Origin: Gammaproteobacteria bacterium
Lineage (GTDB): Bacteria > Pseudomonadota > Gammaproteobacteria > Chromatiales > Chromatiaceae
Length of the DNA stretch: 64,000 nt
Assembly: GCA_020445415.1 (NCBI GenBank)
Contig: JAGRGP010000003.1
Span: 1 to 64,000 of the forward strand
Direction: 5' to 3'
In this document: positions 9,992 to 43,200 of the stretch, piece after piece
Numbering within the stretch: position 1 is the stretch's first letter
Layout: every line of letters begins with the position of its first letter
The notes under the pieces: generated by a model
What the model saw: the letters and a program-made list of their open reading frames with translations, nothing else
What the model was told of the DNA's origin: nothing
Databases searched by the model: none
Program-made: the position numbers and the translations under genes

Positions 9992-10064
9992 GATATTTTT
10001 TCGTATTCCGCTCTACCTATCTCGACTCAATTAATTATAATAACTACGTACAGCTCAATTCCAG

Positions 10065-10081
10065 AGTACGGTTAACGTACT
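10065..10081. promoter_or_regulatory. Inverted repeat, candidate operator upstream of the XRE gene
   Basis: AGTACG (10065-10070), five bases, CGTACT (10076-10081): a perfect 6-base dyad with 11-base centre spacing, typical of a dimeric helix-turn-helix operator. It lies about 140 bases before the XRE-family gene in a 230-base gap that is otherwise AT-rich and shows no gene. A related ACTACGTAC element is found some 20 bases upstream. Autoregulation by the XRE protein is an inference. Confidence 0.3.
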
Positions 10082-10221
10082 GTGGGAAAGTGGTACCTCA
10101 CCCGAAAACCGTGAGAAGCCCAGGCTTTGAATGAAATTCACAAAAACGATTCAAGAAACCTGTACGAGTGCCGTTAGAAAAAACGTGAATTTCTTACACC
10201 ACTGACAAGCAGGTTGATTGC

Positions 10222-10554
10222 ATGACTGTATCGAATCCCCAAAACCTCGGGACCCTCGGCCAGCGGATGCGTTATAAACGCCTAGACCTCGGCTGGACCC
10301 AGGAACAGCTGGCCGCCCGTGCCAGCACCAATCAGGCGGTTATTCAGAAGATCGAGAATGGAAAAAGCCTGCGACCTCGGAAGATCGATGAGATCGCCGC
10401 GGTACTGGGTGTCAATCCCGCCTGGCTCATGTTCGGCGAAGAGCCAGAATCGGCCCTGCCGGAGGATGCCAAGAATATCGCCGAGGCTTGGAGCAAGTTG
10501 CCAGAGCCTCACAAGTCCAGAATTCAGCAAGAGATACTGAACCTAGTTGCTTAA
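10222..10554 (+). CDS. XRE-family helix-turn-helix transcriptional regulator
   Basis: 110 aa. A single Cro/C1-type HTH domain occupies residues 10-70: LGQRMRYKRLDLGWTQEQLA, then ASTNQAVIQKIENG as recognition helix and an AAVLGVNPAWLMFG end. The C-terminal 35 residues (AEAWSKLPEPHKSRIQQEIL) form an amphipathic helix likely to be a dimerisation tail rather than a C1 peptidase domain. It resembles stand-alone chromosomal or phage-derived repressors, but no other phage gene is present. A strong hairpin follows the stop and separates it from the convergent rlmI. Confidence 0.85.
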   Translation: MTVSNPQNLGTLGQRMRYKRLDLGWTQEQLAARASTNQAVIQKIENGKSLRPRKIDEIAAVLGVNPAWLMFGEEPESALPEDAKNIAEAWSKLPEPHKSRIQQEILNLVA

Positions 10555-10596: not shown

Positions 10597-11793
10597 TCAG
10601 AAAGACGGCAGGACACGCAGCATATAGGTCTTGAGATACGCGGTCTCAGGTATTGCCGTATGAATCGGGTGGTCAGGTGATTGCGCGCCTTGCTCTAGCA
10701 ACTGCAAACTGCGATCAAGATGCCTGGCCGCTTTCTGTAGTGTCTGCACCAAGTGCTCGCCGCTCATGTGGTATGAACAGGAAGAGGTGATCAAGATACC
10801 GTCCTTGGCGAGCAACTGCATCGCCGCCTGATTTAACCTCCGGTAGGCGAGCATTCCCGCCTTTACATCCTTTCGCCGCTTGATGAAGGCCGGCGGATCA
10901 ACAATCACTACCTCGAATCGCTGGCTTTCGTTGCGCAACTCGCGCAGTGCCACAAAGGCATCCCCCTCTAGGGTTGCCAGCCGTTCCTGTACCCCATTGA
11001 TCGCGGCATTGTTTTGCGCCTGCTCAAGCGCCATACCCGAGCTATCGACACAAAAGGCCTCCGCAGCACCTGCCGACAGTGCCCGAATCCCCCAGGCTCC
11101 GACGTAACTGCATACATCCAAAACCCGTCGGTTGCGGACATAGGGAATCATTCGCGACCGGTTACTCGCCTGATCGAAAAACCAGCCGGTCTTTTGGCCT
11201 TCGGTCACCGCCACCTGAAAACGGCACCCCCCCTCCTCAATCTCTAGAAAATCGGGTCTTTCCCCCACCGGAACCTCTACGTAGAGCTCGAGCCCCTCGC
11301 TTTCGCGTACCGGCGAGTCATTGCGTAAAATGATGCAAGACGGCCGTAAAACTTTCTCCAGCGCCGTTATCACCTCCCCTTTCACCCACTCCATCCCTGC
11401 TGTGTTCAGCTGCACTACAAGAACGTCTCCATAACGGTCAACCACCAAACCCGGCAAGCCATCACTTTCACCAAAGATTAGCCGGTAGTAGGGCCGTGCA
11501 AACAGTCGTTCCCGCAGTGAGAGGGCTACTTTGAGCCGATGCACCATCAACGACACGCCCAGTGAGTAATCATGATCACGACTGACTAAGCGAGCACATA
11601 TCAGCGAATGCGGATTGACATAACCCGACCCCATCCATTTCCCCTGATGAGTGATGATATCGACCGGCTGACCGGCCTGATACGCCTTCAGCGGAGAACG
11701 CCCGCCATCAATCTCATTGCTATAGACCCAGCAATGACCGGCACGGATCCGGCGGTCCTGTTCTTTAACGAGGTAGAGAGGTTCGGCATGCAT
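10597..11793 (-). CDS. rlmI: 23S rRNA m5C methyltransferase, RlmI type
   Basis: 398 aa, the same size as E. coli RlmI (methylates C1962 of 23S rRNA using S-adenosylmethionine). An N-terminal PUA domain (about residues 1-75) is followed by the family beta-hairpin with FGESDGLPGLVVDRYGD, and a Rossmann methyltransferase domain with motif I VLDVCSYVGAWGIRAL (about 220-236), motif IV VDPPAFIKRRKD and motif VI with the likely catalytic cysteine in SSCSYHMS. Related PUA/Rossmann proteins exist, so the precise target base is inferred from overall similarity. It is convergent with the XRE gene. Confidence 0.88.
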   Translation of the reverse strand: MHAEPLYLVKEQDRRIRAGHCWVYSNEIDGGRSPLKAYQAGQPVDIITHQGKWMGSGYVNPHSLICARLVSRDHDYSLGVSLMVHRLKVALSLRERLFARPYYRLIFGESDGLPGLVVDRYGDVLVVQLNTAGMEWVKGEVITALEKVLRPSCIILRNDSPVRESEGLELYVEVPVGERPDFLEIEEGGCRFQVAVTEGQKTGWFFDQASNRSRMIPYVRNRRVLDVCSYVGAWGIRALSAGAAEAFCVDSSGMALEQAQNNAAINGVQERLATLEGDAFVALRELRNESQRFEVVIVDPPAFIKRRKDVKAGMLAYRRLNQAAMQLLAKDGILITSSCSYHMSGEHLVQTLQKAARHLDRSLQLLEQGAQSPDHPIHTAIPETAYLKTYMLRVLPSF

Positions 11794-11954
11794 AGTGCGC
11801 TGAATTGTCCGTCTTAGTTCTACCGGCCAGTTAGCCTATGGCCGTGGCGAGTGAGCATCGCGCCGGCGAAAACAACCGGATAAGGGTACGGATACCACAG
11901 ACCTCACATTCGGTTAGCACGCCGGGATGACCGCCAGAATCGACTGGCCGCAGC

Positions 11955-12040
11955 ATGATACGAAATACCTAAACAAACTATCAACATTCTGCTCATTCAA
12001 TCCGCCGGATAGGGTTGATATCCGGCCTATTTCGTATCAT
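11955..12040 (+). repeat. Nested inverted repeats in the leader of the first RND operon
   Basis: An outer perfect 13-base inverted repeat, ATGATACGAAATA (11955-11967) and TATTTCGTATCAT (12028-12040), encloses 60 bases. Inside lies a second perfect 8-base stem, GCCGGATA (12004-12011) and TATCCGGC (12019-12026) with a GGGTTGA loop. The outer right arm ends 27 bases before the adaptor ATG. It can be a pair of spaced operator half-sites or a folded 5' leader that would present the ribosome site outside the stem; the sequence does not decide. Confidence 0.6.
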
Positions 12041-12067
12041 TCTTTGGCCCGAAGCCAGGGAAACATC

Positions 12068-13111
12068 ATGAAGGATTCAATACGAAGCGTTCTATCAACA
12101 CATGCCGGGCGCTTTGCAATGGGATTGTGGGCCTTGTTGGTGGCAACGCAATCCGTCGCGGAAACCCAGGGAGTGCGGGTTAGTGTATCACCGGTGGATA
12201 GTCTCATCTATCTGCCTACTTATTCGGCTCCCGCAACCGCTGTCAGTCTTAATGAAAGCCGACTCAGCGTCGAAACCTCCGGGCGTATCCTCGGCATACC
12301 CGTGCACGTGGGTGACTCCGTTGAAAGCGACGGTCTTCTGGCAGAACTGGAATGCAGTACTAACCGCAGCGCCCAACGAGAAGCCGCGGCACAAGTTAGT
12401 GCCGCCAAAGCCCAGTTGACGTTAGCTGAGCGGCAAATCAAGCGCACCCGGATCCTCATGAAGGAACGCAACGTCTCGGAAGAGATACTGAACCAACGGG
12501 AAGCGGAGCTACTAACCGCGCAGGCTAATATCGCGGCCCGGCAAGCGGCTCTCGAAAATGCTGACTTGGCGGTTCGACACTGCCGGATAACCGCACCTTT
12601 CGCGGGAGTGGTAACCCAGCGACTCGCTAATGAAGGCGAATGGATAACACCCGGCCAGCCCCTGGTCCGCCTACTTGATACCGAGCGTCTCGAGGTTTCC
12701 GCGCAGATTCCCCTTGGCCATATCGACTCCCTGAAACAGGCCCCGCAGTACGATCTGGCGGTGGCGGGAAAGCGTTATCAGCTCAGTCTCAGACGGCTGC
12801 TGCCCGCCATTGACAGCTTGGCGAGAAACCAGGAGGCCCGCTTCGAGTTCATCGGCAAGCGGGCGCTTCCGGGAAGCAGTGGGCGGTTGCTTTGGCAGGC
12901 TACTCACTATCACCTGCCCGCCGATATTCCAGTGAGGCGTAACGGTCAACTCGGAGTTTTCGTGGAAGCGGATGGCATCGCCCACTTTAAGGTTCTGCCC
13001 GGAGCACTCGAGGGAATCCCGGCGCCCACTGACTTGCCCCCGGGGACGGTGCTGATCATCGAAGGGCGTCACGGATTGAGTGACGGTGATCCGGTGATTC
13101 CCCAGAATTAA
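12068..13111 (+). CDS. RND efflux periplasmic adaptor subunit (membrane fusion protein)
   Basis: 347 aa from the ATG at 12068, which has AGGGAA 5 bases upstream; a longer open frame from 11927 would run through the inverted-repeat leader and is rejected. A signal peptide ends about residue 32 (LLVATQSVAE). No lipobox cysteine is seen. Then come the biotinyl-lipoyl half-domains around VETSGRILGIPVHVGDSVES and CRITAPFAGVVTQRLANEGEW (its second half), separated by an alpha-helical coiled-coil hairpin rich in Ala, Gln and Glu (about residues 100-165). It is a short HlyD/AcrA-type adaptor linking the pump to an outer-membrane channel. The pump gene begins 1 base after its stop; no channel gene is present. 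Confidence 0.88.
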   Translation: MKDSIRSVLSTHAGRFAMGLWALLVATQSVAETQGVRVSVSPVDSLIYLPTYSAPATAVSLNESRLSVETSGRILGIPVHVGDSVESDGLLAELECSTNRSAQREAAAQVSAAKAQLTLAERQIKRTRILMKERNVSEEILNQREAELLTAQANIAARQAALENADLAVRHCRITAPFAGVVTQRLANEGEWITPGQPLVRLLDTERLEVSAQIPLGHIDSLKQAPQYDLAVAGKRYQLSLRRLLPAIDSLARNQEARFEFIGKRALPGSSGRLLWQATHYHLPADIPVRRNGQLGVFVEADGIAHFKVLPGALEGIPAPTDLPPGTVLIIEGRHGLSDGDPVIPQN

Positions 13112-13112
13112 G

Positions 13113-16100
13113 ATGCTCTCTCGACTGCTGCGGAACCATGTTCTGGCCAATCTTAGCTTTGTGCTGGTGTTGATGATGGGGCTCTTTTCCTATCTGCAGA
13201 TGCCCAGGCAGCAGGATCCGACCATCAACTTTAACTGGATTGACATTACCACCCTGTTGCCGGGTGCCGCAGCGGAAGATGTCGAAACACGGGTCACCGA
13301 CATCCTAGAGAAGAAGATACGCCGGATAGCGGATATCAAGTTCGTCTCCAGTACCAGCCGGGAGAGCTTGTCAAACATCCTGGTTCGCTTCGAGGATATT
13401 CCCGAGCGCGTCTTCGACAAGCGGGTTGCCGACCTGCGCCGTGAAGTGCAGAATGCGGAGGCCGAACTTCCTCCCGAAACCGACTCCCCGATCGTCACCG
13501 AGATTACCACAGGAAACGCTTTTCCCAGTGCCGTCTTGGCGGTGGTGGGTGTCGAAGACGATGAGAACCTGCGTCAACGCTCTGAGGCAATCAAGAAGGA
13601 CCTGGAGCGAATAAAGGGCGTGGATCGCGTGCTTTCCGCCGGATTGCGGGACCCGGAGTTGCAAATCAATTTTCTCCCGGGGCGCCTCGAGGCAGCCGGA
13701 GTTAGACCGGTCCAGCTATCCGCTACCGTCAACCGCAGCTTCAAAGACCTGGCGGCGGGCAGTACCCGGGTGAACGATCAGACGTGGCTCGTGCGGCTGA
13801 TCGGACGGGACAATGATCCCGGCTATTTGGCGCAATTGCCGATTGCCGGTGCCGAGGGTGAGATTCCGCTTGGCGATCTGGCTGAAGTGGTGCGGGGCCG
13901 AGAGAAGGCAAACGAGTTGGTCCGCTACGAGGGGCGGCCAGCCGTCATGTTTTCGATCACCAAGAAAGACGGCTCCAACACCTTAGAACTGGTGCAACGG
14001 ATTCGGGAGTATATCGATGGAGGCAACCAGTTCAGCGACCGCACCGGTGTGCATATGGTGTTGATTGACGATCAGACGGAGATAACCCGTAACGCCTTGT
14101 CCATCATGCAAACCAATGCCCTGATCGGGTTGCTGCTGGTACTCGTGGTAACTTGGCTGTTTCTCGGTAGCCGCATTGCCCTGCTCACTACTATCGGCAT
14201 CCCATTCATCCTGGCAGGAACATTCTGGGCCCTGGATAAACTGGGTCAGACCCTGAATGTAAGTGTGCTGCTCGGAGTGGTGATAAGCCTCGGCATGTTA
14301 GTCGACGATGCCGTGGTGGTAGTGGAATCCATCTATTACCGGCTACAACGCGGCATGGCTGGCTTGGGTGCCGTGGTTGAGTCGCTACGTGAGGTATTCG
14401 CCCCCGTCACTACCGCGGTATTGACCACCATGGCAGCCTTCCTCCCATTGATGTTATTGCCCGGCATTCTCGGAAAATTCATGCTGGTCATCCCCTTGGT
14501 GGTCACCATCGCACTGGCCATCAGTCTAATCGAAGCCTATTGGATGCTGCCTACCCACATGCTGGGGATAAACATCAACCTTCAACGCCCATCTCGCGTT
14601 CATGCCACCCGGGTCAAGGCACTCCACTGGATCAGGCTAAAGTACACTCGACTGTTGATCCGCGCTCTGAGATGGCCAAGGCTTATCATGCTGATGATGG
14701 TGCTTGCCTTCGCCGTTGCCATCGGCACCGTCCTGGGTGGCAAGCTAAAATTGGACTTCTTCGCCTCAGACCCGATCCGGCTGTTCTACATAAATGTAAT
14801 CATGCCCTCCGGCACGCCGCTCGATGTTACCTTGACAAAGGTACTGGAGGTGGAAAAACGCGCCAAAGAACATCTACAACCTGGGGAGCTTCGCAACCTG
14901 ATTAGCTTTTCGGGACAAATGTTCACCGAGATCAATCCATTTTTTGGCGACCACTATGGACAAATCCTGATCGCACTAAACCCCCTGAAAGACGGATTGC
15001 GTGGCGTGGACGAAATGATCGAGTCCATGCGGGCCGCAGTTACAACGATCCCGGGCCCCGAGAAGGTCTCGTTCCTGCGCCTGGCCGGCGGTCCACCCAC
15101 CTCCAAACCCATTTTGATTAAGGTACTGGGAGACGATACTGAAGAGATCCGCCGAGCGGTGGCGGAACTAAAAGCGCTCATGACCGCTAACCCCGCCATC
15201 CGGGACATCAGTGACGACGATAGCCGGGGACAGATGGAGCTGCGGACCCGGGTAAATCAGGAGGCGGCCCATCGAGCCGGCATTGACCCTGGGGAGGTCG
15301 GCCGCACACTCCAGCTACTGATCGATGGCGAGATCGTGGCCCGCATGCAAGACCGGGGAGAAGAAGTTGAGGTTCGCGTGCGGGCTCGGCCCCGCAACCT
15401 AGATGAAATCGACCTACCAAGCAATTTCACACTGCCACTGGAAGGGGGCAAACAGATCGCCCTGAGTGAACTGCTGCACACGGAGACCGGTCCCAGCCTC
15501 GCTAATATCCGCCACTACAACTTCCGCAGAAGCATCACTATCGAAGCGGACCTGGACAAAACAGTAACCGACACAGTCACTGCCAACCGCGAGATCCTGG
15601 ATGGCTGGGAACGGAGAAGGTCGCACTATCCGGGGATTAGTTTGGATTTTTCCGGTGAACTGGACGACATTCAAGAAAGCATCGATGCCATTCAGGTTCT
15701 GTTTCTATTCGGTTTGGGACTGATGTACTTAATCCTCGGCACCCAGTTCCGAAGTTACTTTCAACCATTGATGATTCTGGCCACGGTACCCATGGCCTTT
15801 ACCGGTGTTGTGGCGGGACTATTGATTACCGACAACCCCCTCAGTCTGTTCACAATGTATGGGGTGGTGGCACTGGCAGGCATCGCCGTGAATGCCGCCA
15901 TTGTCTTGATCAGCGCCGCCAATGAACGCCTGGAGTCTGGCATGAGCGTACTTCATGCCACCCTGTATGCCGCCCGCCGCCGGGTCATTCCGATTCTAAT
16001 TACTTCAATGACCACCGTCGCCGGCCTGCTTTCATTAGCCACCGGGTTGGGTGGTCACTCCCTCATGTGGGGCCCCGTTGCCACGGCTATCGTCTGGGGA

Positions 16101-16223
16101 CTTACGGTTTCAACCCTGTTGACGCTGTTCGTTATCCCCTTGCTCTACCGCATCTTCATGGCCGGCAAAGGCGATTCACGGAGACGATTGGCGGCCGCCC
16201 AACAATCGGCACAGTCAACATAA
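13113..16223 (+). CDS. RND family efflux transporter permease
   Basis: 1036 aa, standard for HAE-type RND pumps. TM1 (residues about 10-28) is followed by the first periplasmic loop with PGAAAEDVETRVTDILE, then TM2-6 including the proton-relay pair in LGMLVDDAVVVVES near residue 400. The second half repeats the pattern with a GLGLMYLILGTQFRSYFQPL segment and AGIAVNAAIVLISAANE. Substrate cannot be read from sequence. It belongs to the clade distinct from AcrB (MLSRLLRNHVLANL start, PRQQDPTINF instead of the AcrB P-AQYP pattern). It forms an operon with the preceding adaptor. Convergent or downstream features are not coupled. Confidence 0.9.
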   Translation: MLSRLLRNHVLANLSFVLVLMMGLFSYLQMPRQQDPTINFNWIDITTLLPGAAAEDVETRVTDILEKKIRRIADIKFVSSTSRESLSNILVRFEDIPERVFDKRVADLRREVQNAEAELPPETDSPIVTEITTGNAFPSAVLAVVGVEDDENLRQRSEAIKKDLERIKGVDRVLSAGLRDPELQINFLPGRLEAAGVRPVQLSATVNRSFKDLAAGSTRVNDQTWLVRLIGRDNDPGYLAQLPIAGAEGEIPLGDLAEVVRGREKANELVRYEGRPAVMFSITKKDGSNTLELVQRIREYIDGGNQFSDRTGVHMVLIDDQTEITRNALSIMQTNALIGLLLVLVVTWLFLGSRIALLTTIGIPFILAGTFWALDKLGQTLNVSVLLGVVISLGMLVDDAVVVVESIYYRLQRGMAGLGAVVESLREVFAPVTTAVLTTMAAFLPLMLLPGILGKFMLVIPLVVTIALAISLIEAYWMLPTHMLGININLQRPSRVHATRVKALHWIRLKYTRLLIRALRWPRLIMLMMVLAFAVAIGTVLGGKLKLDFFASDPIRLFYINVIMPSGTPLDVTLTKVLEVEKRAKEHLQPGELRNLISFSGQMFTEINPFFGDHYGQILIALNPLKDGLRGVDEMIESMRAAVTTIPGPEKVSFLRLAGGPPTSKPILIKVLGDDTEEIRRAVAELKALMTANPAIRDISDDDSRGQMELRTRVNQEAAHRAGIDPGEVGRTLQLLIDGEIVARMQDRGEEVEVRVRARPRNLDEIDLPSNFTLPLEGGKQIALSELLHTETGPSLANIRHYNFRRSITIEADLDKTVTDTVTANREILDGWERRRSHYPGISLDFSGELDDIQESIDAIQVLFLFGLGLMYLILGTQFRSYFQPLMILATVPMAFTGVVAGLLITDNPLSLFTMYGVVALAGIAVNAAIVLISAANERLESGMSVLHATLYAARRRVIPILITSMTTVAGLLSLATGLGGHSLMWGPVATAIVWGLTVSTLLTLFVIPLLYRIFMAGKGDSRRRLAAAQQSAQST

Positions 16224-32459: not shown

Positions 32460-32510
32460 GGGTCTCTCCTCGGACATCACGGCAGCTTCGGGCACAATAC
32501 CCTGAGCCGT

Positions 32511-32690
32511 CCCTCTGTCCAAAACCTGAGAGTTTGAAACCGCATCAGCCGGCTCCTGCCCCATCGGTGGATCGAATGATCTCTCTCCAGAGTCAACCCA
32601 GGCAATCGCCTTGAGTTCCCGGTCCTTTTGCCTGAGCGATTCCGGACGGTTTTGCGCCTTCGGCGTCGGTCTGAGCCGACCTCTCCCGGG
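32511..32690 (-). ncRNA. Tandem glycine riboswitch controlling the gcv operon
   Basis: On the minus strand two consecutive glycine aptamers precede gcvT. Aptamer 1 (32690 to about 32618) opens with GGGAGAGG, has CGCCGAAGGCGCAA and closes with GCTCAGGCAAAAGGACCGGG. Aptamer 2 (32592 to about 32511) opens CTCTGGAGAGA, has a GGGGCAGGAGC core and closes CTCTCAGGTTTTGGACAGAG. The two are joined by a short linker, as in classical cooperative glycine riboswitches, which usually switch gcv expression on at high glycine. The 3' end is about 50 bases before the gcvT start; whether control is by termination or ribosome access is not clear. Confidence 0.93.
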
Positions 32691-32714
32691 AACACGGGTT
32701 AGGTTGCAGGAACA

Positions 32715-42985: not shown

Positions 42986-43016
42986 TCCGATTAGGTTTAG
43001 CCTTATTCATGAAGGC

Positions 43017-43200
43017 ATCCCCTGCGGTGTTCGTTAGAAGGCCGGGTATTTTCTTGAGCCTAATATCTACCCCGGGGGTAAAAAGTGGTTGTCGATGTGC
43101 ATGTCCGCCACGAGCGGAAAGCCTATAGACGGCGCGGTTATCCCCACTTGAACCATCCGGTTCAAGAACGAAAGCCGACGACGGCACAGGCGGGGGGTGT
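43017..43200 (+). ncRNA. ssrS: 6S RNA (SsrS), global regulator of sigma-70 RNA polymerase
   Basis: About 184 bases directly downstream of zapA, the conserved location. Recognisable 6S pieces in order are a CCCCTGCGGTGT closing strand, GAGCCTAATATCTACC in the 5' bubble region, the apical GGTTGTCG...GCATGTCCGCC part, the stem CTTGAACC and GGTTCAAG with a four-base loop (43147-43166), GCCGACGACGGCA and the complementary GGCGGGG closing strand. 6S RNA mimics an open promoter and sequesters the sigma-70 holoenzyme in stationary phase. Ends are estimated to within several bases; in the usual arrangement fau follows, and here only a fau relic does. Confidence 0.88.

Follow-up and report, generated by a model that had tools for sequence, protein, structure and literature searches.

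The start of an RND efflux operon in a gammaproteobacterial genome carries three copies of a two-block word, ATACGAA-N14/10/6-TATCAAC, in the orientations +, −, +. We tentatively read these copies as a lineage-specific cluster of three candidate sites for one DNA-binding regulator, placed over putative divergent promoters and the gene start. The window analyzed here is the whole 64,000-nucleotide stretch of contig JAGRGP010000003.1 (assembly GCA_020445415.1), and the genome assembly spans 3.79 Mb. A sequence-only reading of this DNA had reported a perfect 13-base inverted repeat with 60-base spacing that encloses a second, perfect 8-base stem. Both elements were recovered exactly as described, and the outer dyad is the inverted pair formed by word copies 1 and 2.

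The dyad region occupies the 274-bp gap that separates a divergent rlmI-like gene from the RND adaptor gene, which is followed in operon order by the permease and then by a DUF255/thioredoxin-like gene. The adaptor reading frame is open upstream to an ATG at 11927, the mechanical ORF start. We set the start at the ATG at 12068 because AGGGA lies seven bases before it and the N terminus that follows resembles a signal peptide, a choice of ours in which that resemblance was judged by eye. Given this start, the outer right arm ends 27 bases ahead of the adaptor, as the earlier reading had it. Its remark that no regulator gene is adjacent holds for the immediate neighbors; beyond the divergent rlmI-like gene, however, lies a gene for an XRE-type helix-turn-helix (HTH) protein.

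Table 1. Features at and around the start of the RND efflux operon (positions in the window).
Feature	Position	Strand	Basis or remark
XRE-type HTH gene (HTH_3)	10222–10554	+	Family match; conserved in neighborhood
Divergent 23S rRNA methyltransferase-like gene (RlmI/RSP_2647-like)	10597–11793	−	Below NCBIfam cut-offs
Outer dyad, left arm ATGATACGAAATA	11955–11967	+	Perfect over 13 bp
Promoter-like TTGATA-18-TATCAT facing rlmI-like gene	11955–11984	−	13.0 bits; −10 inside left arm
Two-block word copy 1, ATACGAA-N14-TATCAAC	11958–11985	+	Exact match
Inner hairpin GCCGGATA-7-TATCCGGC	12004–12026	+	Perfect over 8 bp
Two-block word copy 2, spacer 10	12014–12037	−	Exact match
Weak promoter-like TTGATA-17-CATTCT facing adaptor	12015–12043	+	8.9 bits; overlaps inner hairpin and right arm
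Outer dyad, right arm TATTTCGTATCAT	12028–12040	+	Perfect over 13 bp
Predicted hairpin over ribosome-binding site	12040–12062	+	Absent from best fold of 11940–12067
RND periplasmic adaptor (RND_mfp, TIGR01730)	12068–13111	+	ORF and family match
Two-block word copy 3, spacer 6	12080–12099	+	Exact match; adaptor codons 5–11 if start is 12068
RND permease (ACR_tran, PF00873)	13113–16223	+	ORF and family match

Taken singly, the 13-bp outer pair is mildly unusual and constitutes weak evidence; its nesting around a second stem is stronger evidence. The outer dyad is the longest in the window with a gap of 100 or less and, in the 397,500 bases examined of its own genome (the window plus 20 further stretches), the only one to reach 13 bp; with mismatches allowed the repeat extends to 22 nt at 86%. 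Shuffling the 274-bp intergenic region alone 2000 times gave no dyad of 13 bp or more; genome-wide, however, the outer dyad by itself is not rare, dyads of that length with gaps up to 100 being present in 14 of 150 dinucleotide-shuffled windows. The inner arms (12004–12011 and 12019–12026) pair perfectly over 8 bp around a 7-base loop; when the 60-base interior was shuffled 3000 times, stems of 8 bp or more appeared in 9 cases. Dyad and nested hairpin together are thus unlikely to be a product of chance, though the region was picked for that combination. Slightly inward of the outer arms, TATCAAC (11979–11985) and GTTGATA (12014–12020) form a further inverted pair.

Neither dyad points to a wider set of targets. 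A genome search for the 13-mer, suggested by the earlier reading, found it at these two places plus one 1-mismatch site elsewhere, and a genome-wide regulon for it was rejected. The same conclusion was reached for the inner dyad after a genome search for CCGGATA-N3-11-TATCCGG, which occurs at three places including the inner hairpin; the other two are inside what we take, from the translation, to be a ccmF-like ORF and between ORFs that appear, likewise from their translations, to be cvpA-like and purF-like. In L057 the dyad CCGGATA-8-TATCCGG stands at 1501–1522, between the presumed cvpA-like and purF-like ORFs, with a stem identical to that of the inner dyad. An interspersed repeat, MITE-like or other mobile element was also rejected: a 201-base query matched itself alone in its own genome at E ≤ 0.001, and relaxing a 274-base query to E ≤ 1 brought in two short stretches, one of 16 and one of about 22 bases.

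The two-block word is exclusive to this locus within the assembly. Exact matches to ATACGAA-N4-14-TATCAAC number three in 3.79 Mb, all of them here and within 142 bp, and the same pattern (spacer 4–14) has no match in two genomes of the same genus. A search of 204 family genomes, themselves taken from a larger group, gave 32 occurrences in 24 of them; the 203 genomes other than this one account for 29 matches in 23 genomes, never two per contig. With blocks of 7 + 7 bases, a three-copy word arose in none of 1000 shuffles of the region and in none of 3000 shuffles in which the 13-bp arms were held fixed; with 6 + 6 bases the corresponding counts were 1 of 1000 and 6 of 3000. These counts are post hoc, the region having been chosen on account of the dyad. 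A two-copy pair of two-block words with unequal spacing turned up in 61 of 1000 shuffles, and therefore it is the third copy that carries the weight. The spacers share no sequence save an ATA that follows the first block in copies 1 and 2; perfect blocks with unrelated spacers are the pattern anticipated where it is the blocks that are preserved. Thus several copies of one word lie at one promoter beyond chance expectation, as for a local operator, in a region selected after the fact, and a search for the word at other promoters of the genome, as for a regulon, found it at these three places alone.

With the start at 12068, the third copy falls within the adaptor coding sequence, over the codons TCA ATA CGA AGC GTT CTA TCA ACA, most of which are rare (synonym shares 0.07–0.24). 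These eight codons are rarer than codons 4–11 of all 200 ORFs compared and rarer than all 10,808 internal eight-codon windows, although 1 of the 200 ORFs has an equally low window within codons 2–15. The control set comprised ORFs of at least 250 codons taken from their first ATG, so that some starts are wrong and the adaptor itself is included with 11927 as its start. A run of rare codons over copy 3 fits a constraint on the nucleotide sequence. AT-rich rare codons also arise near gene starts for other reasons, and a tendency of genes to begin with AT-rich codons could account for part of the result.

Scanning with a hand-entered sigma-70 matrix placed the best predicted promoters of both strands over the dyad, pointing outward, so that by sequence match they would start transcription outside it. 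The minus-strand match has its −10 element in the left arm, and 5 of 1000 shuffled strands scored as high. The plus-strand match falls short of significance, since 174 of 1000 shuffled strands reach its score, and one further promoter scan missed it. In the corresponding gap of relatives, strong matches were found in G017 (14.5 bits) and in G222 and G012 (15.3 bits each), and none above 5 bits on the plus strand of G073 and G074.

Together, the exclusivity of the word, its perfect blocks, the predicted −10 element in the left arm and the rare-codon run over copy 3 speak for the operator cluster. Each candidate site would consist of two recognition blocks, ATACGAA and TATCAAC, joined by a loose spacer. 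Copy 1 would cover the −10/−35 region of the promoter on the rlmI side. Copy 2 would lie over the promoter region that serves the efflux operon; copy 3 would fall among the first adaptor codons, about 30–50 bases downstream of the predicted transcription start. Occupied singly or bridged, the sites could control both directions, with repression as the simplest mode. Protein binding, repression, the promoter assignments and the replacement of a PadR circuit considered below are what we infer. A rigid dimer would not easily accommodate spacers that change from 14 to 10 to 6 bases, and with the triple word absent from 11 orthologous leaders and lacking a second target in its own genome, no regulon backs this reading. 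Because the spacers are uneven, no other target was found and the word is not conserved, we hold this reading as a tentative one.

Comparison with relatives covered 12 neighborhoods, in which the XRE gene (66–90% identity) is present in 10, the rlmI-like gene in 10, lgt in 8 and a small ORF in 6; the G066 contig has no rlmI, the G004 stretch shows the adaptor and permease alone, and the G073 contig ends inside rlmI. The adaptor is 47–56% identical to its orthologues (55–56% over the aligned part within the genus, about 48–55% beyond). None of the 11 orthologous leaders has a comparable dyad, their longest being 7–8 bp, or 11 bp in G066. The latter is an inverted repeat, CACGGAGATCA, in the XRE–adaptor gap of a contig that lacks an rlmI-like gene (L066), and it looks to us like a common interspersed repeat. 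At 28 other adaptor loci, with the upstream stretch counted from the start of the BLAST match and not from an annotated start codon, the longest dyad is 11 bp. No three-copy word of any sequence with 6 + 6 bases is present in the 11 leaders, searched over their last 420 bases at most. Words with 5 + 5 blocks occur in three copies in 3 of the 11, and versions this short are therefore meaningless; single blocks with at most one mismatch appear in 8 of 11, never as a copy of the word. A search of a contig collection, from which the own genome was possibly left out, for exact 11-bp arms with a spacer of 50–76 gave no match, and a protein search of that collection matched 87 stretches, none confirmed as a relative. 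Conservation of the dyad in orthologues was accordingly rejected for the leaders examined. The sequence-only reading had named, as the outcome that would count against it, relatives that keep the operon with neither pairing nor a conserved word, and this is what two same-genus and nine other leaders show. A young, species-specific site may still explain the dyad, the orthologues being diverged.

The XRE-type protein is probably not the reader of the word. Its HTH region is unchanged from TQEQ to RPRKI in two same-genus genomes where the word is absent, with one D/N change just after. The HTH region is nearly invariant in six family members, and the gene recurs in 10 of 12 neighborhoods. Upstream of the gene, at 9992–10221, is a block conserved in this genome and in G001, G002, G072 and G074. 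We take this block to resemble a sigma-28/FliA promoter (TCAAGAAA-N11-GCCGTTAG here), and the hairpin upstream of it covaries from CCTCAC/GTGAGG to CCTCGC/GCGAGG, with 5 of 6 pairs formed in this genome. The aligned block is a separate conserved element and was rejected as a form of the two-block word.

Of the explanations that compete with an operator cluster, the absence of any function, with a dyad due to chance and repeats due to chance or to mutation (template switching) in intergenic DNA under no constraint, strikes us as rather unlikely. The relatives' leaders examined show nothing similar, and both the unequally spaced two-block pair (61 of 1000 shuffles) and the dyad itself are readily obtained by shuffling; from the 14 of 150 shuffled windows, a perfect 13-bp dyad would be expected several times in a genome of this size, and sites without function would make this locus a caution to that effect. 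Chance accounts poorly, however, for a word present three times here and matched exactly nowhere else in the genome, a pattern not reproduced in 3000 shuffles with the arms fixed, or for a nested hairpin seen in 9 of 3000 interior shuffles, and duplication would be expected to leave similar spacers, whereas those observed are largely unrelated. A very different proposal is that the 13-bp repeats are recombination sites and that an 86-bp flip aims TTGATA-18-TATCAT at the efflux operon. Inverted repeats do surround a promoter here, as identified by sequence match, and this strongest match (12.97 bits), which now faces away, would upon inversion face the operon with a leader of about 21 bases before the ATG. 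Such a swap follows by construction, though, from any promoter with its −10 in an arm, and the third word copy is left unexplained. A 60-base interior is very short for recombination of this kind. Searches for a dedicated invertase with PF00239 (resolvase/invertase) and PF00589 (tyrosine recombinase) found none nearby: the former has no match in the genome, against matches in 10 of 14 control genomes, and the five matches to the latter are all on other contigs. PMC8748976 describes promoters of this invertible kind that control resistance genes in Bacteroidales, and it found no resistance gene with such a promoter outside Bacteroidales among its samples. We regard inversion as highly improbable.

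Of the two options in the earlier reading, the looped repressor site survives in altered form, as a local protein site with three word copies, one of them coding, and the RNA switch finds no comparative support. As an RNA, the arrangement would work by strand exchange in a transcript starting upstream of copy 1: copy 1 would pair with the antisense copy 2, forming the 13-bp stem with the inner hairpin and leaving the start codon free, and when this pairing fails copy 2 would pair with copy 3 and enclose the ribosome-binding site and start codon. The sense–antisense–sense order is the arrangement this requires, and spacers of unequal length are unsurprising in an RNA. On either strand the 86-nt segment outdoes 200 of 200 shuffles in folding (z about −4.5), and a further predicted hairpin could mask the ribosome-binding site. 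Pairing of copy 2 with copy 3 lies 1.4 kcal/mol over the minimum if copy 1 is left out and 5.6 kcal/mol over it if copy 1 is included; the probability of this pairing, however, is near 0 with copy 1 and at most 0.16 without, and the TATCAAC:GTTGATA helix joining copies 1 and 2 hardly forms (probability 0.012 or less). That the predicted transcription starts fall outside the dyad argues against a transcribed switch, with the reservation that the plus-strand match is not significant. The covariation test suggested by the earlier reading was run on an alignment of 8 of 12 leaders (the own genome and seven others, with start codons picked by eye; G005, G066, G222 and G012 were left out for length, a PadR-like gene or a missing rlmI). 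At 31% mean identity these leaders hardly align, which makes the test a weak one, and covariation did not exceed that of shuffles: 53.6% of 69 testable cells pair, compared with 51.0% (131 of 500 shuffles as high), and five pairs show changes in both partners, a count that 136 of 500 shuffles reach. More cells do pair in the true register than in six slid registers (24.6–42.0%), as expected for a structure taken from one row. RNAalifold gave no consensus structure for the alignment, and Rfam gave no gathering-level match at the leader, with two matches at E 2.1 and 2.5 below their family cut-offs; a described RNA family was rejected on that basis. Elsewhere in the window there are two adjacent glycine riboswitch aptamer matches (32505–32698, − strand) and a 6S RNA match (43016–43200, + strand). 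We judge the strand-exchange switch unlikely, and still less probable is a species-specific, three-strand version in which the antisense copy 2 chooses its upstream or downstream partner and either the choice of transcription start or a factor bound to copy 1 decides whether the start codon is enclosed. A switch of the three-strand type, if real, might have replaced the PadR gene that presumably guards the operon in some relatives.

A tblastn comparison with the G222 PadR, itself above the Pfam cut-off, placed a PadR-like gene immediately before the adaptor in 13 of the 27 genomes covered, and from this position the adjoining PadR presumably controls the RND operon of those relatives. The PadR family model has no match in the genome studied here and matches 14 of 14 control genomes; a literature search returned no report on a PadR with an RND efflux operator. 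If the candidate sites are real, the control of a conserved RND operon would have been rebuilt within one family, with the PadR-like gene in some genomes and absent in others, and the cluster, unique within its genome and spanning promoter and first codons, would offer a small, testable case of regulatory turnover.

Several known systems resemble parts of this arrangement. Sites of NarL/FixJ-type response regulators are heptamers in varied orientation and spacing, and the locus shares with them short blocks, mixed orientation and variable spacing at one promoter, although its block sequences do not fit the NarL heptamer. The Pseudomonas PA5471 leader, which controls mexXY, requires a translated leader peptide and works through an anti-repressor. 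It is similar in that a structured leader is proposed to act on an RND pump and differs in that the leader here has neither covariation nor an RNA family match. The invertible promoters of Bacteroidales, as presented in PMC8748976, likewise combine inverted repeats around a promoter with resistance genes, the counterpart here being an RND operon; unlike them, this locus has no invertase-family gene on its contig by two family searches and an interior of 60 bases. A further comparison is the PadR-associated RND operon of relatives such as G222 and G012. There a padR-like gene stands directly upstream of the adaptor, and GATATATATTGA is found near the promoters of both; here the genome has no PadR match and the leader lacks that sequence. 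The adaptor–permease operon is nonetheless of the identical type, and in G222 and G012, for which larger flanks were examined, it sits in the same place beside the rlmI-like and XRE genes, and each of the two has a promoter match, TTGACA-17-TATATT, preceding padR.
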